A DNA stretch of 32,553 nt from Steroidobacteraceae bacterium (GTDB lineage Bacteria; Pseudomonadota; Gammaproteobacteria; Steroidobacterales; Steroidobacteraceae). The first letter of the stretch is position 1. Each line of letters starts with the position of its first letter. The stretch is from positions 1 to 32,553 of the forward strand of contig JADGHX010000036.1 in the NCBI GenBank assembly GCA_019683695.1, written 5' to 3'. Under the pieces are notes generated by a model. The model did no database searches. It saw nothing but the letters and a program-made list of their open reading frames with translations, and had not been told where the DNA came from. Shown one piece after another: positions 9,743 to 29,695 of the stretch. The translations under genes and the position numbers were made by a program.

Positions 9743-9943
9743 ATGACGCCCGAGCCCACAACCCGCAGCACTGCCGCGCAGAGCGGACACCGCCCTGCCG
9801 TCTGGCCGTGGTTGCTCCTGCCGCTCGCGGCGCTCACGCTTTTCTTCGCACTGCGCACCGCCAAGGAATGGCCGGCACCCGCGCCTGACGTGGAGGCGAC
9901 GGCGCCCGATACCGCGCACAGCGAGCCCTTCGAGTCCCGCTGA
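9743..9943 (+). CDS. Small single-span membrane protein, 66 residues
   Basis: I do not recognise the family. A 20-residue charged/polar N-terminus is followed by one convincing hydrophobic span (about 21-41, WPWLLLPLAALTLFFAL) and an acidic, Pro/Ala-rich tail. That fits a small inner-membrane protein with the tail on one side. It ends 21 bases before rimO on the same strand, so co-transcription is plausible. No strong ribosome binding site is seen and the opposite strand also has an open frame, so the call is moderate. Confidence 0.5.
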   Translation: MTPEPTTRSTAAQSGHRPAVWPWLLLPLAALTLFFALRTAKEWPAPAPDVEATAPDTAHSEPFESR

Positions 9944-15211: not shown

Positions 15212-16573
15212 GTGCCCTCGCTTTCGGTATGGATGAATGGCGAGCGGGTCGGGGAGTGGGCCGTGCTTCCCCGGCAGGGCTCGATATTCCGCTACGAGTC
15301 TTCCTGGGTCAGCTCGCCCCGTAGCCGCGCGCTCTCGCTGTCCTTGCCCATCACCGCGAACCTCGAGGTGCGCGGCGCGGCGGTGGATTACTACTTCGAC
15401 AATCTCCTGCCGGACAGCGTGGAGATTCGACGCCACATCCGGGATCGCTTTCAGACGTCCTCGATGGATGCGTTCGATCTGCTGACAGCGATTGGGCGGG
15501 ATTGTGTCGGCGCCGTTCAGCTGCTGCCGCCGGATGAGGAGCCCGTGGGTTGGGATCGCGTTATGGCCGACCCCCTCACGCCCCGCGAGATCGAGGAGAT
15601 TCTGCGAGCGGTCCCGACCTCGCGGCCGCTGGGTCACGATGACGAAGACGGGTTTCGCATCTCCATCACCGGCGCGCAGGAAAAGATTGCCTTCCTCGGC
15701 ATGGGCGGGCGATGGTACCAGCCGCGTGGCGCCACGCCGACCACGCACATCTTCAAGCTGCCGCTGGGGCTGATCGGCGGGTTTCGTGGGGATCTCTCGG
15801 ACTCCGTGGAGAACGAGTGGCTGTGTGCGCAATTCCTGCAAGAGCTCGGGCTGCCGGTCGCGGAGACGGGCATTGCAAGATTCGGCGAGCAGAAGGTGCT
15901 GATCGTGAAGCGGTTCGATCGGCGCTGGCAGGGCACAGAGGACGCGGAAGTCCGGCGACGGCAGTTCAGACCGGGTCGGGGCGTATGGGTCGCTCGCCTC
16001 CCACAGGAGGATCTGTGTCAGGCGATGGGGCTTCCGCCGTCCAGAAAGTATGAGGCGGATGGCGGCCCCTCCATGGCCGATGTTCTCACGCTACTTGCCG
16101 GCAGCGTGCACGCGCACGCGGACCAGGTGAATTTCCTGCTGGCGCAACTCGCGTTCTGGCTATTGGCCGCCACTGACGGGCACGCCAAGAACTTCTCTCT
16201 CCAGCACCGCGCCGGTGGTGTGTACAGCATGACGCCGCTGTACGACGTGCTTTCCGCATGGCCCGTCATCGGTCACGGACGCAATCAACTTGCCTTCGAG
16301 AAGGCGACGCTCGCAATGGCCGTGCGCGGAAAGCGCGCACATTACAAGCTGAAGGACATTCACGCACGCCACTGGAAGGATCTTGCAGAGCAAACCGGAG
16401 TGGGCCGCCTGTGGCAACGAATGATCGCGTTGGTCGAGGCGGCGGATGCGGCGTTTGCCCGCCTTGAAGGCACGCTGCCCGCATCATTTCCGGAGCGGGT
16501 GTTCACGACTATTCGCGATGGGGTGCGGTCGCAGGTTCGGCGGTTTCAAGGTGGGCTCGCAGCGCTGAAGTAG
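15212..16573 (+). CDS. HipA-family serine/threonine kinase toxin (E. coli HipA type)
   Basis: The product is 453 residues with a GTG start six bases after hipB. It resembles E. coli HipA throughout: FRISITGAQEKIAFL contains the Ser (about 151) equivalent to the autophosphorylated Ser150 and the ATP loop, THIFKLPLG carries the ATP-binding Lys, ENEWLCAQFLQELGLPVAET and LIVKRFDRRW follow, LPQEDLCQAMGLPPSRKYE is a family signature, and ATDGHAKNFSL holds the catalytic Asp and Asn. All key residues look intact. The target in E. coli is glutamyl-tRNA synthetase, and phosphorylation halts translation and causes persistence. The 264 bases after it have only a weak hairpin (TCGAGC, TTC, GCTCGA, 16606-16620). 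Confidence 0.92.
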   Translation: MPSLSVWMNGERVGEWAVLPRQGSIFRYESSWVSSPRSRALSLSLPITANLEVRGAAVDYYFDNLLPDSVEIRRHIRDRFQTSSMDAFDLLTAIGRDCVGAVQLLPPDEEPVGWDRVMADPLTPREIEEILRAVPTSRPLGHDDEDGFRISITGAQEKIAFLGMGGRWYQPRGATPTTHIFKLPLGLIGGFRGDLSDSVENEWLCAQFLQELGLPVAETGIARFGEQKVLIVKRFDRRWQGTEDAEVRRRQFRPGRGVWVARLPQEDLCQAMGLPPSRKYEADGGPSMADVLTLLAGSVHAHADQVNFLLAQLAFWLLAATDGHAKNFSLQHRAGGVYSMTPLYDVLSAWPVIGHGRNQLAFEKATLAMAVRGKRAHYKLKDIHARHWKDLAEQTGVGRLWQRMIALVEAADAAFARLEGTLPASFPERVFTTIRDGVRSQVRRFQGGLAALK

Positions 16574-20055: not shown

Positions 20056-21306
20056 TCATGGATTCGGAGCCGAGCGTTGTCGCCGATCTCCTCGGTGGCG
20101 GCATTCCAGGCGTACAAGCCCCTGGCGAATCACATCGATGAGGCGCTCGACGAACCGTCCGGCATCCTTGTGCTGCTTTCCGTAGTCGGTAGCTAGCCCG
20201 ATGGCCTTGAGAGCACCGTCAGCGACCTGCTCGAGCAGCTCGACGGCAGCCGCTTCACTTCTGCCAGTGGTCCTGCGGATGAAGCGCAGCAGTCGCGCGC
20301 GATCGGGGAACTGCTTCGAGCCGGTGAGCGTGAGTGCGAGAGAGTCCTTGGGCAGATACGGCAACGTCGAGACGATGTCGTAGGCCGGTGCGAGCTCGAC
20401 GACATCTTCGGGGTGTCGATAGAGCACACTGAAGTTCTTCAGGTGCGCATCGCCGTTTCCGATGAGACAGGCGTAAGCGACCATTCGGGCGTACTGCTCG
20501 CGAGCGCGGGCGAGTGTCGACGGAGAAATGAAATCGACCAGGCGCTGCGCGATGCCCTCGTACGAGCCGTCGTAGCGGCCGTGCGCGCGACGCCCATCAA
20601 GCACACAGAAATCCTCGACACCGAGATAGCTGCCGTCCGGCATCAGGTCAAAGCGATCGACCACCAGGAATTTTCGGTTCTCGGACAACCGCACTCGCGC
20701 TGTCTTGATGCCGGCGGCCGCAGCTCCCTGCGTGCAGATGTATTCGTTAGCGGCGAGCTCGGGGTACTCGGCGTCGAAGGTTTTCACGATGTGCGTGGCG
20801 CCCTGGTGGGTCAGCTTCGAGGGCGCTTGCGCTTCACGTACAAGAACCTTCGGCTGAATGCCGGAGATTCCAGAGTACGTCGCAAAACGCTCGAGCAGGT
20901 GCGCAAAGAGATCGGCGCTGCCGCGGTAGGTCAGGATCTCTTCGAGGTTCTGCTCCGGCACGCTCTCGTCGAGATCCTCGCTCGGTGAGTATCGCAGCCG
21001 ACCGATTTGCGCGGCACCGACGATCTGCAGCAGATCCAGATCGTCGAACTCCGGGATCACTTTTGCGAACTGCGTGCGTAATCGCTCTTTGAGCGCGCCC
21101 TCGGGAAGATTCATCTCGAAGATCGGCAGAAGTCCCGCCATCGCATCGTATGGATCGACGCGAATTGGCATGGTCAGCGACACGGCGCTCTCGTCGGAGC
21201 AGCCCGGCCGGTAGCCGAAGAGATAGGTGTCCGCTTGAACGTCCGAGCGCGCGATCGCACCGACGCGCTTTTTGCCGACGAAGACGTTCAGGGGCGGCTT
21301 TTTCAC
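20056..21306 (-). CDS. HipA-family kinase toxin, second and divergent copy
   Basis: The product is 416 residues with a GTG start at 21306, overlapping the stop of its antitoxin (GTGA). The N-terminal subdomain (LNVFVGKKRVGAI, MPIRVDPYDAMAGLLPIFE) is followed by the kinase core: SGISGIQPKVLV (P-loop with candidate autophosphorylation Ser), HIVKTFDAE (ATP Lys), ANEYICTQGAAAAGI, FLVVDRFDL, NGDAHLKNFSV (catalytic Asp/Asn) and YDIVSTLPYLP. All look intact. It differs clearly from the 15.2 kb HipA (SGIQPK versus GAQEK form), so it belongs to another HipA subfamily and probably has another target. The end RHRGDRRQRSAPNP looks like readthrough into non-conserved sequence. Confidence 0.9.
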   Translation of the reverse strand: MKKPPLNVFVGKKRVGAIARSDVQADTYLFGYRPGCSDESAVSLTMPIRVDPYDAMAGLLPIFEMNLPEGALKERLRTQFAKVIPEFDDLDLLQIVGAAQIGRLRYSPSEDLDESVPEQNLEEILTYRGSADLFAHLLERFATYSGISGIQPKVLVREAQAPSKLTHQGATHIVKTFDAEYPELAANEYICTQGAAAAGIKTARVRLSENRKFLVVDRFDLMPDGSYLGVEDFCVLDGRRAHGRYDGSYEGIAQRLVDFISPSTLARAREQYARMVAYACLIGNGDAHLKNFSVLYRHPEDVVELAPAYDIVSTLPYLPKDSLALTLTGSKQFPDRARLLRFIRRTTGRSEAAAVELLEQVADGALKAIGLATDYGKQHKDAGRFVERLIDVIRQGLVRLECRHRGDRRQRSAPNP

Positions 21307-23062: not shown

Positions 23063-24244
23063 ATGTTCCGAGTCTTTATTGCTTTCGCGGTATGCATGAT
23101 GGCGGCTGTGCCCGAAACGGGAGCTGCGCAGACACGACCGCCGATCGTGTCATCGATTGATGCGTACGTTGGCGCCACGCCGGAGGTCGTCAGCATCGCT
23201 GGACGCGAACATCTGGTGTACGAGCTGCATGTCACAAACTTCAGATCGTCTCCGATCACGCTGACGCGCGTTGAGGTTGTCGACGCGGAAAAGGACGTTG
23301 GGCTTGCCAGCTTCAGTGGCGCCGTGCTCTCGAGCCGTATTGGCCGTCCGGGCGTCGCGCGCGATCTTGCGGACACGCGAGTCGTCGATGCGGGCATGCG
23401 GGCTGTCGTGTATTTCTGGCTGCCGCTCGAGCCAGGCAAGTCACCACCTTCGCGGGTGCGCCACAGTATTGGTGTCGAAGTCGATCGAGCGGGGAAGCGG
23501 ATTCCGCTGGTCGTGTCGGCGGCCGAAGCGGAGGTCCGCAAGGAGCGTCCCATCGTTCTGCGCGCGCCGCTGCGTGGTGGGCCGTGGGTGGCGCTCTACG
23601 ATCCGGCGCTCGTCGGGGGACATCGCACGGCCATGTACGCGGTAGACGGGCGGGCGCGTATTCCGGCGCGATTCGCTATCGATTTCGTGCGCCTAGAGCG
23701 CGATGGCACGCACGCGCGAGGGGATCGCAACTCGATTGCGAACTGGCACGGTTATGGGGCGGAAGTTCTCGCCGTGGCGGACGCCACGGTCGTCGATGCG
23801 CGGGATGACATGACTGAGTCGCCATCGCTGGACAAATCAGAGTCGTCGATCCCGTTGGAGAACGCCAGCGGCAACTTCATCGTTCTGGACCTGGGCGAAG
23901 GGCGTTACGCCTTCTACGAACATCTGCAGCACGGCAGCCTTCGCGTGAAGCCCGGCGACCGGGTCAAGGCGGGCGATGTCATCGCACGGCTCGGCAACTC
24001 GGGAAGCAGCTCTTCGGGCCCCCACCTGCATTTTCACGTCGCGGACGCGGCCGCGGATTTGGCTGGCGAGGGTGTCCCGTATGTTTTCGCCTCATTCGAG
24101 GCCATCGGCAAGTTCAACGACGTCGACGAGTTCGCGGCGGGTCGGCGATGGGCACCAGCTGACGCCGATGCCGCGGGAGTCCGGCGCGCCGAGCTGCCGG
24201 CACCCAATTCGGTGATCTCGTTTTGGGATCACACGGAAACGTGA
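23063..24244 (+). CDS. M23 (LytM/lysostaphin-type) family metallopeptidase, exported
   Basis: The product is 393 residues from ATG 23063 (GCAGGAGAGC just before it), with a signal peptide (1-22, MFRVFIAFAVCMMAAVPETG, then AAQ). The N-terminal part (30-165) is a beta-rich domain of unknown role. The peptidase domain (about 180-360) has RFAIDFV (203-209), YGAEVLAVADATVV, YAFYEHLQHGSLRVKPGDRV (catalytic-His region) and GSSSSGPHLHFHV (HxH ligand, 321-323). The first zinc motif HxxxD reads RFAID, with Arg in place of His, a form common in this divergent group, where an upstream GHR (187) may substitute. It probably acts on peptidoglycan crosslinks in the periplasm or as a non-catalytic regulator. 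Confidence 0.85.
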   Translation: MFRVFIAFAVCMMAAVPETGAAQTRPPIVSSIDAYVGATPEVVSIAGREHLVYELHVTNFRSSPITLTRVEVVDAEKDVGLASFSGAVLSSRIGRPGVARDLADTRVVDAGMRAVVYFWLPLEPGKSPPSRVRHSIGVEVDRAGKRIPLVVSAAEAEVRKERPIVLRAPLRGGPWVALYDPALVGGHRTAMYAVDGRARIPARFAIDFVRLERDGTHARGDRNSIANWHGYGAEVLAVADATVVDARDDMTESPSLDKSESSIPLENASGNFIVLDLGEGRYAFYEHLQHGSLRVKPGDRVKAGDVIARLGNSGSSSSGPHLHFHVADAAADLAGEGVPYVFASFEAIGKFNDVDEFAAGRRWAPADADAAGVRRAELPAPNSVISFWDHTET

Positions 24245-24393
24245 TCCTGAATCCAGGCGCGACGACAACGCGGTGAGGTGGGGGCGCACTTCTTCGCCCG
24301 CGTTTGCTGTAGCCTCAACCTCGCCAGCCGACCTTTACGTCGACGCGGCCGAATGTGAGGGTCGAACCCCCACCTAGTGCTGGAGCTATTTGC

Positions 24394-24618
24394 TCAGCCC
24401 TCGGCATACGTATGGGCAATCGGCCTCACATAGGCTGACACCGGAATACCACGAACGTATTTCGGCAAGTCGGGTAATGCATGAGAGAAGGATGGACTTA
24501 CCCAGACGAGCAACTCAAAGCCTGAAGCGGCTCCGCAGCACAGCACGGTGAATGCGTTCTCTGGCAGGCCCGAACGATTGATAAACGCTTGCACAATCCT
24601 GTGTTCGCGCGCGCTCAT
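24394..24618 (-). CDS. 74-residue protein coupled to the serine protease gene, unrecognised
   Basis: It begins MSAREHRIVQAFINRSGLPE, then AFTVLCCGAASGFELLVWVS, and ends in RPIAHTYAEG. Its ATG overlaps the protease stop as ATGA, so it is translationally coupled and functionally linked to the protease. It has a double Cys, no signal peptide and a compact alpha/beta look (helix, strand, strand). It might be a protease inhibitor, immunity partner or substrate, but that is a guess from context. About 150 bases separate it from the convergent M23 gene. Confidence 0.6.
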   Translation of the reverse strand: MSAREHRIVQAFINRSGLPENAFTVLCCGAASGFELLVWVSPSFSHALPDLPKYVRGIPVSAYVRPIAHTYAEG

Positions 24619-25706
24619 ATGTTGTGCCCGCTCACGAGCGACACACCCAGCTTGTCGAGAACCGATCGGATCGGCAAAACAAACGTGTAGTCAACGCCTT
24701 GACCCCGAGCCCCTCCAATCAGAATGCCGACAGCGTGGCGCACGCCGTCTTTAACGGCGGTGATAAGCGATCCGGAATCGCCGTGGTCTGAGAACACCTG
24801 AGCCTTCCCTTGGATGATGAAAACCGGATCGAAGTAGACATCTCCGGAGAATTCATAGTCGACCCCTTGCACAGCATACTTGATCCCGAGCGGCCCGTGC
24901 GCTTGGGCGATAACCACGCCTGTCGTGTGACCAGTGGTGCGGCCGACTTTTTCCACTTCCATGTCGGGCTCAATATCTGAGATGTGGTTGGGGGTGTCGT
25001 ACCAAGCGCCTTGGAGAGATGTAACAGTCGCTTCGTCGCGGATTTTGAAGATAGCTGCATCAAGGTTGTTGCTCACATCCGCAGTACCGGGAATCCCGGT
25101 ACTCAACGGAATACTCCTCTCGTGGTAACCGAGAGTTGTCGGGTCGAAGCCGAGGGGTGTCACGTCCAATACACCCGGAGCGAGGATAGGCATTTGCTTT
25201 GGAGCATAGTTGCAGCCACCGGTAATGTGGTTGTTGGTAAGCCCATATAGCACCCCGTCCGGATCTTTCACGAGCGCGCCCAACGTCCCGGCATCGCGGC
25301 AATTGCCGAGCGAGATCGAGCTACCGCAGGCATAGTGATCGACACCTGCTTGTTGGACGACGTAGAAAGGCTTCCCTCGGGCTTGCGGTGGCTCACTACC
25401 GATCCCCTTCGCCACCCCTTGCCGATACTCAATCTCAGATTCGCCAACTTCGTGCGGCAGCAGCGATAGCTGCTTCTTTCCGGGACGAGCCCGGCGCAAG
25501 AACACGATGATCTTGCGCTCCACTTCATTTACAGCCAAGAGCTGCACACCGCGACTTCGCAGTACGTCCTTTGCCGTTTCCGAAATCGAGGCCAGTTCTG
25601 AGGTTCGCGCCTGAGCGTCCGCGGACGGCGGGCGCACGCTTGAGGGAAACAGGTTTTCGGCAACGAGCCACGCGTGCAACACGTCGGCATCCGATTGAGT
25701 ACTCAT
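24615..25706 (-). CDS. Cytoplasmic trypsin-like (chymotrypsin-fold) serine protease
   Basis: The product is 363 residues. The catalytic triad is visible: His160 in LYGLTNNHITGG, Asp216 in NNLDAAIFKI and Ser311 in SDHGDSGSLI. Other landmarks are GSSISLGNCRDAGTLGALV before the His strand and VEKVGRTTGHTTGVV, as in bacterial Nal1-like or phage-island peptidases rather than secreted trypsins. There is no signal peptide. The N-terminal 110 residues are a separate, mostly helical region with a basic RRARPGKKQ. The gene runs leftward from a promoter back-to-back with that of the XRE regulator, and is coupled to the 74-residue gene. A role as an effector or regulated protease of the neighbouring ubiquitin-like system is inferred. 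Confidence 0.85.
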   Translation of the reverse strand: MSTQSDADVLHAWLVAENLFPSSVRPPSADAQARTSELASISETAKDVLRSRGVQLLAVNEVERKIIVFLRRARPGKKQLSLLPHEVGESEIEYRQGVAKGIGSEPPQARGKPFYVVQQAGVDHYACGSSISLGNCRDAGTLGALVKDPDGVLYGLTNNHITGGCNYAPKQMPILAPGVLDVTPLGFDPTTLGYHERSIPLSTGIPGTADVSNNLDAAIFKIRDEATVTSLQGAWYDTPNHISDIEPDMEVEKVGRTTGHTTGVVIAQAHGPLGIKYAVQGVDYEFSGDVYFDPVFIIQGKAQVFSDHGDSGSLITAVKDGVRHAVGILIGGARGQGVDYTFVLPIRSVLDKLGVSLVSGHNI

Positions 25707-25735
25707 CCGGGCACCTCTGCATGCTTGTTTATGGT

Positions 25736-25764
25736 ATAGTAATTAACCGCATCTTGGTTGACAA
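25736..25764 (-). promoter_or_regulatory. Leftward promoter for the protease operon
   Basis: On the minus strand, TTGTCA (25764-25759), a 17-base spacer and TACTAT (25741-25736) lie about 30 bases before the protease start. Its -35 shares five bases with the -35 of the rightward promoter. Confidence 0.5.
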
Positions 25765-25787
25765 GTTACTCGAACGCGTCGTACAGT
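25758..25787 (+). promoter_or_regulatory. Rightward promoter for the XRE-ImmA-Ubl/E2-JAB/E1 genes
   Basis: A perfect -35 TTGACA (25758-25763), an 18-base spacer and -10 TACAGT (25782-25787) lie in an AT-rich gap. The start of transcription would be near 25794, about 47 bases before the XRE gene. CTTG, GTTGA, CAAG (25754-25766) forms a small inverted repeat over the shared -35, a possible operator for the XRE protein. Confidence 0.55.
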
Positions 25788-25840
25788 AGAAACAAGTAGT
25801 ACGTCACAATACATGCCGTTAACCAAACGCCAGGGGCACT

Positions 25841-26197
25841 ATGACACCGTTCGGATTATTCATGCGCACGCTTCGGCTCGAGAGAGGGCTATTGCTCAAA
25901 GACGTCGCCAAACTGATGGGTGTCTCATCGGCCTATCTCTCCGCGCTGGAACATGGCGTCAAGGGTGTACCGAGTGCAGACTTTGTCTCGAAGCTCGAAA
26001 ACAATCTCAAGCTCAACGCACAACAGCGCTCACAACTGCGACGGGCGGTAAGAGATTCGGCAACGCACTTGGCAATCCCACCGAAATCGACACCGCTGGG
26101 CTTTCAAGCTGCACACGCATTTGCGCGCAAGCTGCCGAACCTTTCGGAGCGGCAGCTGCGCCAAGTCTTGGACATGCTCGATAAAGAGGAAGAATGA
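25841..26197 (+). CDS. XRE-family helix-turn-helix regulator
   Basis: The product is 118 residues. An N-terminal HTH, FMRTLRLERGLLLKDVAKLM, GVSSAYLSALEHGVKGVP (about 7-45), is followed by KLENNLKLNAQQRSQLRRAV, a helical segment common in phage-type repressors. The C-terminal part (FARKLPNLSERQLRQVLDML) ends acidic. AGGGG sits before the ATG. The stop overlaps the ATG of the ImmA/IrrE gene. In such pairs the peptidase cleaves the XRE repressor on a signal and so relieves repression. That mode is inferred here from family precedent (ImmR/ImmA, DdrO/IrrE). The likely operator is the shared divergent promoter. Confidence 0.85.
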   Translation: MTPFGLFMRTLRLERGLLLKDVAKLMGVSSAYLSALEHGVKGVPSADFVSKLENNLKLNAQQRSQLRRAVRDSATHLAIPPKSTPLGFQAAHAFARKLPNLSERQLRQVLDMLDKEEE

Positions 26198-26838
26198 TGA
26201 GCGACTGGCTACACGGTACTCGGGTGCCGCCGTTAAGCATCGCCGATTTGCGCGACACGGCGGATCTGATCCGCAGGAATTCTGGGTTGTCACCGGCCGA
26301 GCGCTTTCCGGTACTTCCGTTTCTCGAATGGACCATGCCAGCCCTTTTCGAGAACTTCGATTGGGAGATCGTGGACGCCTTACCTGATGGTGATGAAGCG
26401 CGCGCTTACCCCGACGGTGCTCCTCACTATCCAGACGGACCTTTGATCCAGCTTACGCAATCCGTCTACGATCAAGCTGCCACGAATAATGGGCGCAATG
26501 GGCGCGCGCGCTTCACGATCCTGCATGAGTGCGGCCATGTCCTGCTGCACCAGAAGGTCTCTGCGCATCGTCGAGCGTGTCGTGGTGCCGACCTGCAGCC
26601 GTTCGAGAACTCAGAATGGCAAGCGCACCAGTTTGCCGCGGAGCTCTTGATGCCCGTGGCGAGCTTCAGCGAGGACCAGGAGTTCAATGCGTACGTGACG
26701 CGAATGGGCGTGAGCCGTGAAGCGGCCTGTCGGCGCGCGATGCAACTCCATAGAACGATGAAGAAGCCTGTGCCACGAGGATGGCCGGTTCAGCGATATT
26801 CCAGTATACGAAGAGGAGAGCTCGTCATGACCGCATAA
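26194..26838 (+). CDS. ImmA/IrrE family zinc metallopeptidase
   Basis: The product is 214 residues (ATG at 26194, or the next codon), overlapping the XRE stop. The zinc motif HEXXH is HECGH (111-115) in ARFTILHECGHVLLHQ. The further ligand is probably Glu141 in SEWQAHQFAAELLMP (140-154), the second family signature. A hydrophobic core and no signal peptide indicate a cytosolic enzyme. The tail RRGELVMTA is basic. It is likely to cleave the partner XRE regulator and thereby switch on the divergent operons; an added role in the conjugation system is open. A 158-base gap with a minus-strand terminator follows. Confidence 0.9.
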   Translation: MMSDWLHGTRVPPLSIADLRDTADLIRRNSGLSPAERFPVLPFLEWTMPALFENFDWEIVDALPDGDEARAYPDGAPHYPDGPLIQLTQSVYDQAATNNGRNGRARFTILHECGHVLLHQKVSAHRRACRGADLQPFENSEWQAHQFAAELLMPVASFSEDQEFNAYVTRMGVSREAACRRAMQLHRTMKKPVPRGWPVQRYSSIRRGELVMTA

Positions 26839-26868
26839 AAAAGAAAGGCAAGCACAAGTGCTTGCCTT
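26837..26868 (-). terminator. Rho-independent terminator facing left, in the gap after immA
   Basis: On the minus strand AAGGCAAGCA, loop CTTG, TGCTTGCCTT is a perfect ten-base stem followed by the T-rich tract TCTTTTTTAT. No U-tract exists on the plus strand, so it ends leftward transcription. No leftward protein gene lies to the right of it, which points to an antisense or small RNA. Confidence 0.65.
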
Positions 26869-26872
26869 GGTC

Positions 26873-26917
26873 GACGCGTTGCCGCATCGGTGTGGTAGCC
26901 AAAGTCTGCAACGCGTC
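26873..26917. repeat. 10-base inverted repeat next to the leftward terminator
   Basis: GACGCGTTGC (26873-26882) and GCAACGCGTC (26908-26917) are perfect complements around 25 bases. With the terminator it gives a compact two-stem RNA on the minus strand, or an operator-like site between immA and the Ubl/E2 gene. Confidence 0.6.
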
Positions 26918-26996
26918 TTCTCCAAGGTCAAGCGCATTTTTAGGCACCTCTACACGGGTGCTCGTGTTCATTGCGCATTCTTCAAGGTAAACGCGT

Positions 26997-27845
26997 ATGA
27001 AGACTGTAATTCATGTGGCGGGTTGCCCGCTCGAAATCTCACCGGGTCTCCACGTCGCCTCGGACATCTATTCGCTGGCGCAAATTGACCATGCGAGCCA
27101 CTACCTACTGCTGGAGCGGAACGACGACCGTGACGTACCGCTCAAACCCAGCGACTTTCTCATTGTAAGTGGGGACGAGCGGTTGTCGGTCGCCTCCGGC
27201 GCCTATCCAGCGGAGGATGATCCGATCCTTCGTAAGCCGTTGTCTCTTGTCATCAATGAGGTACCGCTCAAGGGCGAGCAGCGCTTGTCGCACTCGAAAC
27301 TTACGTTCGACGAGCTCGCAGCCTTAGATCCACACTTTGAACCTGGGGATGGAGTGTTCATCGAGCTCGAGGACATCCCAGACGCTCAGGTGATCGCCGG
27401 CATGCGAGTGGTTGTTCAAGACCACGATCGCTTCTACACCAGCCCTGCAGGAAACGTCGGATTCAACTCGGCGCTCGCTGTGGACCTCGAGCATGTCAGC
27501 AAGCTCTACGGGGAGATTGAGCGAACGGACGAGAACGCACGAAGCTTTATCGTCGTTCGCAAGATGCCGCTACCAAGCCATTGGAATCGTGAGCATACGG
27601 ACGTGCTCATCATCGTGCCCCAAGGCTATCCCATGGCCGCACTGGATATGTTCTGGGTCACGCCTGGGCTCGCGCTCGCTGACGGCAGAGCACCACAAAA
27701 CGCGGATCTGATCGAGCAGTATGCTGGGAATTCTTGGCAACGCTTCTCGTGGCACTACCCGCCGAACTATAGGTGGCATCCGCCGAAGGACAATTTGCTG
27801 TCGCATTTGCGCTTCGTGCGTACGCGATTGAATCAGGCGCACTAG
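26997..27845 (+). CDS. Multiubiquitin-type Ubl domain(s) fused to E2-like (Prok-E2_E type) domain
   Basis: The product is 282 residues. The N-terminus (1-75, KTVIHVAGCPLEISPGLHVA, SDIYSLAQI, SHYLLLERN, SDFLIVSGD) has the strand-strand-helix-strand pattern of the multiubiquitin beta-grasp family. Residues 82-155 (LSLVINEVPLKGEQRL, LTFDELAAL, DGVFIELED, MRVVVQDHDRFYTSPAGNVG) look like a second unit ending in a Ub-like tail. The C-terminal 180-282 (FIVVRKMPLPSHWN, TDVLIIVPQGYPMAALDMFW, ADGRAPQNADL, WQRFSWHYPPNYRW) matches the prokaryotic E2 family E, with its YP-P flap. The only Cys in the protein is C10, so the E2 domain has no catalytic Cys. It is followed after 11 bases by the JAB/E1 gene and should cooperate with it. 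Confidence 0.82.
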   Translation: MKTVIHVAGCPLEISPGLHVASDIYSLAQIDHASHYLLLERNDDRDVPLKPSDFLIVSGDERLSVASGAYPAEDDPILRKPLSLVINEVPLKGEQRLSHSKLTFDELAALDPHFEPGDGVFIELEDIPDAQVIAGMRVVVQDHDRFYTSPAGNVGFNSALAVDLEHVSKLYGEIERTDENARSFIVVRKMPLPSHWNREHTDVLIIVPQGYPMAALDMFWVTPGLALADGRAPQNADLIEQYAGNSWQRFSWHYPPNYRWHPPKDNLLSHLRFVRTRLNQAH

Positions 27846-27856
27846 GAGGAAAGGCG

Positions 27857-29248
27857 ATGATGAACTACGTCGTACGGATTCGGTCGGTTCATCATCGCCG
27901 CTTTGCAGCGTTGCTGCAGGCGGCGATGCCGGCTGAGAGTGTCGCCTTTCTGCTCTGTAGACGATCCGAAGGCGCTCAGCGAATCGTTTATCTCAGCGAT
28001 GACGTTGTTGAGGTCCAGACGCACGAATACCTCAAGCGATCGGACGATATCGCCTCGGTATCCCCTGAATGTATGGCCCGAGTGGCGCGCATTGCTCGGG
28101 AGAGGAATCTAGTCGTTGTGATGATGCATGTGCATCCGATGACGGAGCGGGGGGTTGGCTTTTCTTGGGCAGATCACGCCGGCAATCGGCGTTCGTTCAG
28201 ATTCTTCCACAATCGAATCAAGCAGAGCGAACACCTCTCTATCGTTTGGAATCGCACGATAGATGAATGTGCTTGCCTTGCGTACCGAAGTGATGGCGTT
28301 ACCGATGTCGTCACGTCGGTGGCGGTGATCGATACAGATAGATGGCAACAATGCGTGGTGGCGCACGCTGAAATTGGGAATGCCTATGATCGCCAGGCGA
28401 TGCTTTTGGGCGAGGAAGGCCAGCGACAGCTGGGCCGTTTCAGTCCAATCATCGTGGGCGCCGGCGGAACGGGATGTTTGGTATCGATGGGCCTCGTCCA
28501 TCACGGTGTGCGTCGCTACAAGATCGTCGATGATCAAATGATCGATGACACGAACCTGCCGCGCATCATTAACTCAAGGCCGTCCGATGTCGGTCGCCGA
28601 CACAAAGTCGATATCGCGCGTGAGTATGCGCTGTCGCACGCTCCCGATGCCGACATCGAGGCACTATTCAACCACGTCGAGCACCAGGATGTATTGCCGC
28701 ACCTCATCGCTGCGGATCTAATCGTGGTGTGTACGGACAACACCACATCGCGCGCGCACCTCAATGAAGTCTCGCAAAAGTATCTGATCCCACTGCTCGA
28801 TGTGGGCGTGCAGTTTGCAGTGGACAAATCTACTGGAGAGATTGTCAATGAGGTGGGCCGGATCAACCTGGTGAGACCGGGGACAGCGTGCCTTTGGTGT
28901 AGCGGTCATCTGAGCGCAGCTCGGCTTGCTGCGGAAGCCACCCCAAAGCAGGAGCGAGAGCGCGAGGGGAGCTACCTGAGAGGATTTGACGATCCGCAAC
29001 CATCGATGCTCGCCTTCAACATGGAGCTCGTCGGTCGAGCGTTGCAGATTGTGATCGGCTACGTCACGGGGCTTCTCGCACAGCCCTTGCAGGCCTACGA
29101 ACAACGCACTTTCCTCAAATCGAAGGGCGGATCGTTGATCAGGCACGTTGCGAAACAGCAGTCTGCCGGGTGTTTCATCTGCGGCCTGCACGGAGTCGTT
29201 GGGCAAGGCGATGCGGTGCCCGCGACAATCACTCGGCGAGCGGTTTGA
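27857..29248 (+). CDS. JAB/JAMM isopeptidase fused to ThiF/E1-like ubiquitin-activating domain
   Basis: The product is 463 residues from ATG 27857 (AGGAGG six bases before). The N-terminal JAB domain (1-165) has an intact JAMM set: Glu27, HVHP (91-94), and SWAD (103-106, Asp106). The E1/ThiF domain (180-435) has the adenylation loop IIVGAGGTGC (198-207), Asp225, NLPRI with Arg236, Lys250 and CTDNTTSR (292-299, Asp294), and a zinc site from CLWC (345-348) and CFIC (439-442). An E1 activates the Ubl C-terminus as an adenylate; the JAB domain removes or trims Ubl. A fusion of both is typical of the multiubiquitin/E2 cassettes. It is probably last in the operon, since a strong terminator follows. 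Confidence 0.92.
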   Translation: MMNYVVRIRSVHHRRFAALLQAAMPAESVAFLLCRRSEGAQRIVYLSDDVVEVQTHEYLKRSDDIASVSPECMARVARIARERNLVVVMMHVHPMTERGVGFSWADHAGNRRSFRFFHNRIKQSEHLSIVWNRTIDECACLAYRSDGVTDVVTSVAVIDTDRWQQCVVAHAEIGNAYDRQAMLLGEEGQRQLGRFSPIIVGAGGTGCLVSMGLVHHGVRRYKIVDDQMIDDTNLPRIINSRPSDVGRRHKVDIAREYALSHAPDADIEALFNHVEHQDVLPHLIAADLIVVCTDNTTSRAHLNEVSQKYLIPLLDVGVQFAVDKSTGEIVNEVGRINLVRPGTACLWCSGHLSAARLAAEATPKQEREREGSYLRGFDDPQPSMLAFNMELVGRALQIVIGYVTGLLAQPLQAYEQRTFLKSKGGSLIRHVAKQQSAGCFICGLHGVVGQGDAVPATITRRAV

Positions 29249-29255
29249 ATTTCCA

Positions 29256-29299
29256 AAATGAAGCGGCGGCCATCGAAGGTCGCCGCAGTTGTTTCATTT
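29256..29299 (+). terminator. Strong terminator after the JAB/E1 gene
   Basis: A nine-base GC-rich stem (GCGGCGGCC, loop ATCGAA, GGTCGCCGC; one G-U pair) lies within outer arms AAATGAA and TTCATTT, starting seven bases after the stop. The T-rich 3' side gives a U-tail. Confidence 0.8.
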
Positions 29300-29436
29300 C
29301 CCCTATAGAGATGATTCGCCCGAGAATCACGTTACGCCCGTTCATGCGATCGAAAGCAAACAACCGCTAGGCAGCACATCTGGGCACGCCCGCTCGGCGG
29401 CACCAGCGGGTCGAACGGTCGGGCATGACGGAGTAA

Positions 29437-29695
29437 TTCCCTGAAGGGTTTGACCGGGGCAGAGCCAATGCGGGATACCAGCTCGAAAGCGCGTGGAACG
29501 AGCCGGCAATGGTCCGTCGATCTGGGACACTATGCGCGCGCCCGGGAAATTCCACCTACGGCGCCACGGGCGACGTGGGCGTCGATCACTAGGAACACGT
29601 GAAGGCGACGAAGGTGATCGGAGCGGATTGCATCGCTTCTCGATCTCTTGGCCACGCACCTTTCCGAACGGCACGGGACAACCGAACCGCGCGCT
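29437..29695 (+). pseudogene. GH1 beta-glucosidase 5' relic, frameshifted
   Basis: Plus-strand fragments in two frames match the first about 85 residues of GH1 enzymes in order: FPEGFDRGRANAGYQLESAW (frame 1), GNGPSIWDTMRAPGKF (frame 2), STYGATGDVGVDH then TAG and EHVKATKVIGADC (frame 1), LHRFSISWPRTFPNGTGQPN (frame 2). At least three frame changes and one stop are present. No downstream catalytic part follows. It is an old decayed fragment. It lies between the Ubl operon and the epimerase. Confidence 0.75.

Follow-up and report, generated by a model that had tools for sequence, protein, structure and literature searches.

The locus described here raises the question of why a serine protease gene pair, an XRE-ImmA switch and a Ubl-conjugation cassette should be arranged back to back around one promoter region, and whether they act as a single inducible system or only adjoin one another. 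Within the window, by which we mean the whole 32,553-nucleotide stretch of Steroidobacteraceae DNA that was analysed, a check of the ORFs found six genes present and open between 24394 and 29248. These genes and the associated sites are as follows.

24394-24618, minus strand: 74-aa small partner, predicted alpha-beta-beta-alpha-beta domain; 4-bp overlap with the protease gene
24615-25706, minus strand: 363-aa NAL1-type trypsin-like serine protease (GDSG), from Pfam Nal1_C, PHROG 25502 and AF2 fold
25707-25840, unstranded: divergent promoter region, 134 bp, 47.0% GC
25743-25761, unstranded: candidate operator, dyad TYAACC-N7-GGTTRA, overlapping promoter-like hexamers of both sides
25841-26197, plus strand: XRE repressor, CapH-like (HTH_3, 8e-10; best PADLOC match capH, 1.3e-12)
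26194-26838, plus strand: ImmA/IrrE metallopeptidase (HECGH), CapP-like (Peptidase_M78, 1.2e-11; best PADLOC match capP, 1.2e-16)
26845-26868, unstranded: perfect 11-bp inverted repeat with 2-nt loop, in the gap between ImmA and Ubl-E2
26997-27845, plus strand: polyUbl (two beta-grasp-like repeats) fused to Prok-E2_E, BubB-like, FSWH motif (PF14462, 6.3e-25)
27857-29248, plus strand: JAB-E1 fusion, BubCD-like (ThiF, 9e-31; Prok-JAB, 5.4e-6; start ATG at 27857 or 27860)
29263-29286, plus strand: terminator-like hairpin 3' of the cassette, a consensus match only

The six genes differ in composition from the DNA around them, with 56.9% GC as against 63-66% on either side. The lowest-GC 4,855-bp segment of the window begins at 24201 (windows stepped every 100 bp), so that the six genes coincide with a low-GC stretch, which is confined to them. 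From this composition we infer that the island is foreign and was acquired. No tRNA was found in the window, no long repeats bordering the island were among those listed, and a neighbouring M23 gene, used as an empty-site probe, matched its own genome only, of 21 genomes. The divergent region had been called AT-rich, a fair description when its 47.0% GC, and the 38.2% of its core (25725-25800), are set against 64.1% for the window. Likewise, the two 4-bp overlaps (24615-24618 between the protease and 74-aa genes, 26194-26197 between XRE and ImmA) and the 11-bp gap from Ubl-E2 to JAB-E1 (14 bp with the second ATG), which holds AGGAGG, agree with the statement that three of the four same-strand junctions are tight. 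The fourth junction, from ImmA to Ubl-E2, measures 158 bp and contains a perfect hairpin ahead of Ubl-E2; the cassette may have a promoter of its own. Consensus matching for terminator-like sites found 6 as against 4.8 expected.

Judged from their matches to solved BubB (E 1.1e-6) and BubCD (PDB 9ea4, E 2.5e-23), the Ubl-E2 and JAB-E1 proteins are a Bub cassette. The Ubl half has no match in Pfam; its second repeat aligns with annotated multiubiquitin proteins (hhalign 94.5%, E 7.5e-8), the first does so weakly (49.5%, E 1.7e-4), and both repeats align with the polyUbl of another locus, L047 (99.1%, E 1.1e-18). Residues H90, H92, S102 and D105 of the JAB domain are invariant in 9 sequences. 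The original prediction of a multiubiquitin-type Ubl, a Prok-E2_E and a JAB-ThiF fusion is thus borne out by Pfam, hhalign and the BubB/BubCD matches. Fusion of polyUbl to an E2-like domain is already listed for some species in PMC1779556, and we identify operon type 6e of Iyer et al. 2006 with Bub. The seven ORFs 3' of 29248 gave one sub-threshold Pfam match only, to an unrelated family, and an E2_B match elsewhere in the same genome proved to be a separate locus and was rejected as part of this cassette.

The XRE-ImmA switch, also predicted, is confirmed in identity by its CapH-CapP-like sequence matches. The ImmA protein matches CapP in the PDB (7t5t, E 1.4e-4), RmrA being second to capP in PADLOC at 5.3e-12, and, as in CapH-CapP, the XRE and M78 peptidase genes share one operon next to a putative immune operon. 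According to PMC13373217, CapH plus CapP responds to damage and controls immune operons nearby, CapW or the two together accompany 219 of 544 Bub operons, and no phage protection by Bub operons has so far been shown; an XRE-ImmA pair next to a Bub operon is already published and not new. An ImmA match occurs in 3 of 369 genomes of the class, its own included, and the ORF lists of the two other loci, inspected by eye, show no Ubl or protease gene; a search of viral_contigs with ImmA gave no match.

The protease of the opposite operon is a bacterial relative of plant NAL1. It scores 33.8 bits with Pfam Nal1_C, above the cut-off of 26.1, has a match at E 6.3e-18 in a PDB profile search, and in its AF2 model (pLDDT 92.5) aligns 289 residues with rice NAL1 at Z 26.1, rmsd 3.6 and 25% identity. 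NAL1 entries account for nine of the ten best structure-comparison rows (Z 23.6-26.1, model residues 1-363 or 1-361), the fold covering both the N-domain and the protease domain of the model; the sequence match to NAL1 lies mainly in the C-terminal part. We read His160, Asp216 and Ser311, invariant across 29 aligned sequences, as the predicted catalytic triad from the trypsin pattern. The protein belongs to PHROG 25502 (E 7.9e-66), a phage family annotated as of unknown function. As a single query it had no match in viral_contigs and matched 1 plasmid record; the protease of L060 matched 4 plasmid records, and that of L061 had no match among phages. Among the papers listed by literature searches for NAL1 and for serine proteases of prophages, none deals with a bacterial NAL1 or with this protease pair.

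According to ORF lists, all 9 close chromosomal relatives have a small gene 3' of the protease, and a profile built from these nine chromosomal rows located the partner downstream of the protease in 23 of 28 close viral relatives. In close relatives the gene upstream of the protease carries Peptidase_S24 in 23 of 28 cases. Protease and small partner recur as a two-gene unit that frequently sits in prophages, close to a CI repressor, and almost never with Ubl genes; the pair resembles a prophage cargo module. The original prediction held the protease and 74-residue pair beside such a cassette to be unfamiliar, which stands for the combination but not for the pair, recurrent as it is and a member of PHROG 25502. 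The partner (AF2 pLDDT 93.3) has no match in Pfam, and its fold has none at E <= 0.001 in the PDB or viral models; the best structure-comparison Z of 6.5 is of little meaning, and the alpha-lytic protease pro region is among the fold matches at E 0.57 only. The window partner alone showed no significant match to the partners of L040-L042; a 28-sequence partner profile matched them (87.4%, E 3.7e-6) and reached 50.4% with the fused domain of L048/L039. In the AF2 models the partner shares its predicted topology with the N-domain of the protease, and the corresponding sequence link is weak (hhalign 6.6%; the score is 17.4, and none of 50 column shuffles exceeded 13.9). It is possible that the partner serves the protease as a folding helper or as an inhibitor.

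Analysis of one further locus, L058 from a Burkholderiaceae MAG, proved informative as to whether the two operons belong together. It has the same divergent block of four genes, with identities to the window of 70.3% for XRE, 61.7% for ImmA, 56.2% for the protease and 39.2% for the partner. Four genes follow ImmA, the last two being a JAB (BilC, 1.3e-12) and an E1 (BilD, 2.6e-21; E 3.4e-12 against the solved BilD structure). No informative family match was obtained for either of the first two, a putative BilA Ubl and a putative BilB E2 assigned from gene order and reading; the Ubl-like protein ends in Gly. Promoter-like sites occur on both strands of the window's divergent region (5 found in 24200-29500 against 2.1 expected from shuffles), and the dyad overlaps TTGACA of the XRE side (25758-25763) and TTGTCA of the protease side (25764-25759, minus strand). 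The sequence TYAACC-N7-GGTTRA occurs in one place in the 5.18 Mb of its own genome (reversed control 0), and TYAACC-N7-GGTTAA is present at 9898-9916 in the divergent region of L058, where the one promoter-like site detected belongs to the protease side. Among 188 loci the dyad is confined to L058 and L002, the latter being the window's own stretch, and its rarity is partly post hoc as it was found by comparing the window with L058.

The wider surveys are less favourable to a single system. The protease is present in 0 of 22 other JAB-E1 (Bub-type) neighbourhoods, and a Bub homologue in 0 of the 37 flanks fetched around close protease relatives, among which only L058 shows XRE-ImmA or Ubl-cassette homologues; a 20-kb scan of L037, which holds the nearest fused cassette found, gave no homologue of the protease. 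A weak JAB-E1 profile match in L060 was rejected as an FAD oxidoreductase. The neighbourhood search proposed with the original prediction, under which regular separate occurrence would point to a chance neighbour, therefore gave a mixed outcome: the two zero counts taken alone indicate chance, and the L058 block, with another Ubl cassette and the shared rare dyad, supports a common switch. The protease pair is probably not a chance neighbour of the Bub cassette, and the idea of one system around the central promoter is probably right in respect of the collinearity and shared dyad, against which the two zero counts must be set. L058 is the sole other locus with the block and has a common ancestry with the window, so that a single event may underlie the link between protease and Ubl.

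We consider it reasonably likely that the locus is one inducible defence or stress island, in which a CapH-CapP-type switch governs both an exchangeable cassette for Ubl conjugation and a module built on a NAL1-type protease. The CapH-like XRE repressor would bind the dyad at the centre of the divergent promoter, thereby repressing both sides. DNA damage, or ssDNA made by a phage, would activate the CapP-like ImmA peptidase, which would cleave the repressor and so release the Bub-type cassette (polyUbl-E2 and JAB-E1) rightward and the NAL1-type protease with its small partner leftward. The Ubl cassette would occupy an exchangeable slot, held by Bub in the window and by a Bil-type cassette in L058. 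An anti-phage role of the island, and a target of the protease, are presumed in this model.

The alternative that survives best, to which we give a little less than an even chance, is that two independent modules lie behind one switch, the prophage-type protease pair being a stand-alone exclusion or toxin unit which borrows the CapH-CapP promoter and is not tied biochemically to Ubl conjugation. This reading agrees with a shared switch but dispenses with cooperation. It is favoured by the 36 of 37 close protease relatives whose fetched flanks have no Ubl-cassette or XRE-ImmA homologue, and by the many in which protease and partner sit close to a CI repressor, whereas the single relative retaining XRE-ImmA also retains a Ubl cassette, of another type, in the slot. 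Rather doubtful is a toxin-antitoxin-like pair of putatively toxic protease and 74-aa protein under XRE-ImmA, with the Ubl cassette secondary; the close overlap of the two genes and their joint occurrence are in keeping with it, but the predicted topology that the partner shares with the protease N-domain, weak as the sequence link is, would suit a subunit or folding helper equally well. The shared switch could be taken further, with the protease working on the Ubl system itself, for instance by freeing Ubl from polyUbl-E2, removing Ubl or degrading tagged proteins, but this seems unlikely. The protease does face two different Ubl cassettes, and with polyUbl fused ahead of E2 the Ubl C-terminus would have to be freed; however, the window cassette has its own JAB, the Ubl-like protein of L058 already ends in Gly, and L037 lacks the protease. 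That the genes are chance or defence-island neighbours with no control in common, for which the 22 protease-free JAB-E1 loci speak, is very improbable in view of the collinear block and rare dyad shared with L058 and the low-GC stretch coinciding with the six genes.

Two different bacterial Ubl cassettes are thus seen in one regulatory slot facing the same protease module, which offers a specific case, open to test, of a protease that may act together with, or next to, Ubl conjugation in bacteria. PHROG 25502 gains a fold, that of plant NAL1, a partner gene and, because the pair is often found in the prophage repressor region, a hint of its role, which would tie the much-studied rice leaf and yield protein NAL1 to phage-bacteria conflict. 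It is a bolder and rather improbable suggestion that a two-output CapH-CapP-type switch drives a prophage-derived NAL1-type protease and a plug-in Bub/Bil cassette, protease and Ubl tagging together giving damage-induced 'tag and cleave' immunity, with plant NAL1 a descendant or cousin of a phage-conflict protease.

Most parts of the island, namely the Bub cassette, the CapH-CapP-like pair and the recurrent protease pair, are known, and it is the combination that is new. The cassette is like the Bub pathway in its polyUbl, E2_E and JAB-E1 fusion, and differs in the protease pair on the opposite side and in that the seven ORFs scanned 3' of 29248 include no gene of the metal-binding/DUF6527 or phosphotransferase kind. 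Bil (BilABCD), with separate Ubl, E2, JAB and E1 genes, is absent from the window, and a Bil-type cassette fills in L058 the slot that Bub holds here. As in CapH-CapP, an XRE protein and an ImmA-type peptidase adjoin a putative immune operon, but the present pair, whose repressor cleavage and response to ssDNA are putative, faces two divergent operons, one of them with a protease. The protease pair is like prophage exclusion genes such as rexAB of lambda in its position, which in many prophage loci is 3' of an S24-type repressor gene; the RexAB proteins are not known to be related to those of the pair. Finally, the protease has the full-length fold of plant NAL1 (NARROW LEAF 1), N-domain included, and a Nal1_C match above the cut-off, and is distinguished from it by its bacterial and phage setting, its 363 aa and the separate gene of its small partner.

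The six reading frames predicted at 24394-29248 were all found and are all open, with the protease and 74-aa partner on the minus strand and XRE, ImmA, Ubl-E2 and JAB-E1 on the plus strand. Tight spacing, originally claimed for three of the four same-strand junctions, is borne out by two 4-bp overlaps (protease/74-aa gene and XRE/ImmA) and an 11-bp gap, containing AGGAGG, between Ubl-E2 and JAB-E1. The fourth junction, ImmA to Ubl-E2, is a 158-bp gap holding a perfect 11-bp inverted repeat with a 2-nt loop (26845-26868), which has a T-run downstream in the minus-strand reading only. GC content of the island is 56.9%, against 63.2% in the left and 66.4% in the right flank, and among 4,855-bp segments taken in 100-bp steps the minimum starts at 24201; this coincidence of low GC with the block suggests that the six genes were horizontally acquired as a unit. 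Two HipA-family kinase genes (HipA_C, 1.1e-47 and 1.2e-44) lie approximately 3-9 kb left of the island:

15212-16573, plus strand, HipA-family kinase
20056-21306, minus strand, HipA-family kinase

Judged by its sequence, the right-hand operon is a cassette of the Bub (bacterial ubiquitination-like) pathway. The 282-aa protein has an E2 half that resembles Prok-E2_E (6.3e-25) and solved Citrobacter BubB (1.1e-6), and for the JAB-E1 fusion the match is to Citrobacter BubCD (2.5e-23). Two Ubl repeats make up the first ~155 residues of the 282-aa protein, the second matching annotated multiubiquitin proteins well (hhalign 94.5%) and the first more weakly (49.5%), while both align to the polyUbl of another locus, L047 (99.1%). 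A serine lies within the motif [FW]S[WR]H in 12 of 12 aligned E2 domains, and in our reading it probably replaces the E2 cysteine. The same architecture appears in PMC1779556 (2006) under the name operon type 6e; there the E2-like domain is termed inactive, and in some species the polyUbl is fused to it. The best PADLOC match of the XRE protein is capH (1.3e-12). ImmA has capP as its best (1.2e-16; RmrA next, 5.3e-12) and, among solved structures, CapP as a match (1.4e-4). Two IMG/VR contigs (L138 and L139, one of 143 kb) also carry E2 and JAB-E1 genes of the Bub-like kind. In L182 and L183 Bub cassettes adjoin a 1,137-1,157-aa protein whose N-terminus resembles, by eye, an ImmA-type peptidase. 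A CBASS-like region elsewhere in the window's own genome (L187, C205: 24000-40000) has, by eye, patatin-like and nucleotidyltransferase-like ORFs near a weak E2_B match.

The protease matches Pfam Nal1_C (33.8 bits, cut-off 26.1) and phrog_25502 (7.9e-66), a PHROGs family of unknown function. A profile of 29 protease sequences retrieves rice NAL1 from the PDB (6.3e-18), chiefly through profile positions 262-349, and His160, Asp216 and Ser311 do not vary across 29 aligned sequences. The AF2 model (pLDDT 92.5) matches NAL1 over its full length including the N-domain (Z 26.1, rmsd 3.6, 289 residues, 25% identity) and the best non-NAL1 structure over the protease domain only (Z 22.5), these Z scores coming from a re-comparison restricted to Foldseek's own matches. 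The best 80 of 111 relatives from the genome scan comprise nine close, full-length proteases (L058-L066, 38-56% identity), the other 71 being more distant; NAL1-like proteases of the distant kind are found in many Geodermatophilaceae genomes (L067-L137). The viral scan gave 36 loci, 28 of which (L140-L167) we counted, by our own judgement, as close. Thirty-five proteases, the window's included, form 27 clusters at 90% identity. The protease is broken in two in Paraburkholderia mimosarum (L066), where the small partner is still open, and in L165, where another ORF separates the pieces.

A small gene follows the protease in all nine close chromosomal relatives, as read from ORF lists; the partner profile was built from these nine and the window, and its matches there add no proof. 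The profile finds the gene in 23 of the 28 close viral loci (missing in L160-L164; weak in L165 and L167, 2e-3 and 4e-3); of the 71 distant loci among the best 80 of 111 relatives, 30 have it too, mostly actinobacterial Geodermatophilaceae. Across 26 measured junctions, partner and protease frames typically overlap by 4-35 bp, L063, L064 and L166 being the exceptions. L039 and L048 apparently have a similar domain fused to the protease N-terminus rather than a separate one, and the partners of L040-L042 match this fused domain (hhalign 55.9%, E 1.1e-4). In AF2 models the 74-aa protein folds as alpha-beta-beta-alpha-beta (pLDDT 93.3), the same order of elements as in protease residues 43-96, to which its sequence link is weak. 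It may be a trans-acting relative of the protease N-domain that serves as folding helper or inhibitor.

Protease and partner recur together as an uncharacterised module that is common in prophages; this viral setting is partly due to selection, since 28 of the 37 close relatives were drawn from a viral collection. The nearest plausible gene within ~900 bp upstream of the protease, scanned at 28 of the 37 loci (23 viral, 5 chromosomal), has Peptidase_S24 in 23 and HTH_3 in 17; in many prophages, therefore, the pair sits downstream of an S24-type repressor, the position at which lambda has rexAB. Outside that scan were L153 and L155, where the protease is at a contig edge, and L058, L063, L064, L066, L162, L163 and L165, in whose ORF lists no CI-like gene was noticed; instead, L058 has the block's own XRE and L162 a short HTH-like ORF. 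For L142 a prophage context is confirmed by the PHROG matches surrounding the pair: NinB/Orf, replication initiation and CI-like genes.

Whether the six genes belong together was to be judged, in the original prediction, from JAB-E1 neighbourhoods. Apart from the window's own, 22 were examined (6 from a class sample, 9 plasmid, 2 viral and 5 from a phylum sample), mostly with 7-10 kb per side and some shortened by contig ends. An E2 match is present in 20, the exceptions being L046 and the IS-broken L053. The protease and small gene are in none of the 22 (profile search, E 0.01). XRE and ImmA lie near at least three of them: L037 by Pfam, where a single DUF2188 gene intervenes, and L052 and L056 by annotation. 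From the protease side, a search with XRE-ImmA and Bub/Bil-type queries only, at loci some of which are short (e.g. L062, L164), found homologues in one of nine close chromosomal loci (L058), none of 28 close viral loci and none of 71 distant loci among the best 80 of 111. By the original prediction's own rule, the absence from all 22 and near-absence at protease loci would point to chance neighbours. We do not accept this, because L058, a Burkholderiaceae MAG contig, keeps the block with another Ubl system in the slot.

In L058 the divergent layout is the same, XRE and ImmA (70.3% and 61.7% identical to the window's) lying opposite protease and partner (56.2% and 39.2%). Downstream of ImmA are four non-Bub genes: a small Ubl-like protein with a C-terminal Gly and an E2-like protein, both assigned from gene order and reading as neither has an informative family match, then a JAB protein (BilC, 1.3e-12) and an E1 (BilD, 2.6e-21 by PADLOC; 3.4e-12 against solved BilD). 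An E1 of Deinococcus aetherius, 39% identical to it, likewise follows three small hypothetical genes. The slot after ImmA in the conserved block thus appears to be filled by another type of Ubl conjugation. Prok-E2_E occurs in 6 of 398 sampled genomes, the window's own included; with genomes assumed to be 4.5 Mb, we estimate from this that a random 20-kb stretch would hold a Bub cassette about 7 times per 100,000, a figure weakened by defence-gene clustering and by the window having been chosen for holding such a cassette.

The divergent regions of the window and L058 are barely alignable except for TYAACC-N7-GGTTAA (25743-25761 and 9898-9916, respectively), an inverted repeat and candidate operator. 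The wider TYAACC-N7-GGTTRA occurs at one place in the 5.18 Mb of the window's genome (reversed control 0), and the pattern is found among 188 fetched loci only in L058 and L002, the window's own stretch; since it was derived from these two sites, its rarity is supportive rather than an independent test. In the window the dyad overlaps the hexamers of two promoter-like sites, TTGACA on the XRE side and TTGTCA on the protease side, in a scan that found 5 such sites in 24200-29500 against 2.1 expected; in L058 the same scan gave the protease-side site only. A repressor at the window dyad would shut both promoters.

A CapH-CapP-type switch over a NAL1-type protease module and an exchangeable Ubl cassette is our preferred explanation. 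By family, ssDNA would activate the ImmA-type peptidase and the repressor would be cleaved, as PMC13373217 reports for CapH-CapP. Both divergent operons would then be induced jointly, the island might serve an anti-phage or damage response, and the partner might restrain or fold the protease. Three alternatives are compatible with such a switch. That there are two independent modules, the protease pair merely sharing the switch without a Ubl link, is almost an even prospect. It is a tentative possibility that protease and 74-aa protein form a toxin-antitoxin-like pair to which the Ubl cassette is secondary. An integrated pathway, in which the protease acts on the Ubl system, for example by processing the polyUbl-E2 fusion, is unlikely, as the cassette brings its own JAB and the closest fused cassette found, L037, shows no homologue of the protease over the 20 kb covered. 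Chance neighbours without common control, which alone would exclude the switch, are very improbable.

In the literature examined we found no description of this protease pair facing a Ubl cassette across a shared switch, of Bub/Bil exchange in one slot, or of the full-length NAL1 fold of phage family phrog_25502. According to PMC13373217, phage protection by Bub operons has not been demonstrated so far, and CapW or CapH plus CapP adjoins 219 of 544 Bub operons, so that a Bub cassette with an XRE-ImmA switch is a known combination. The parts of the island are ordinary and their assembly is unusual.
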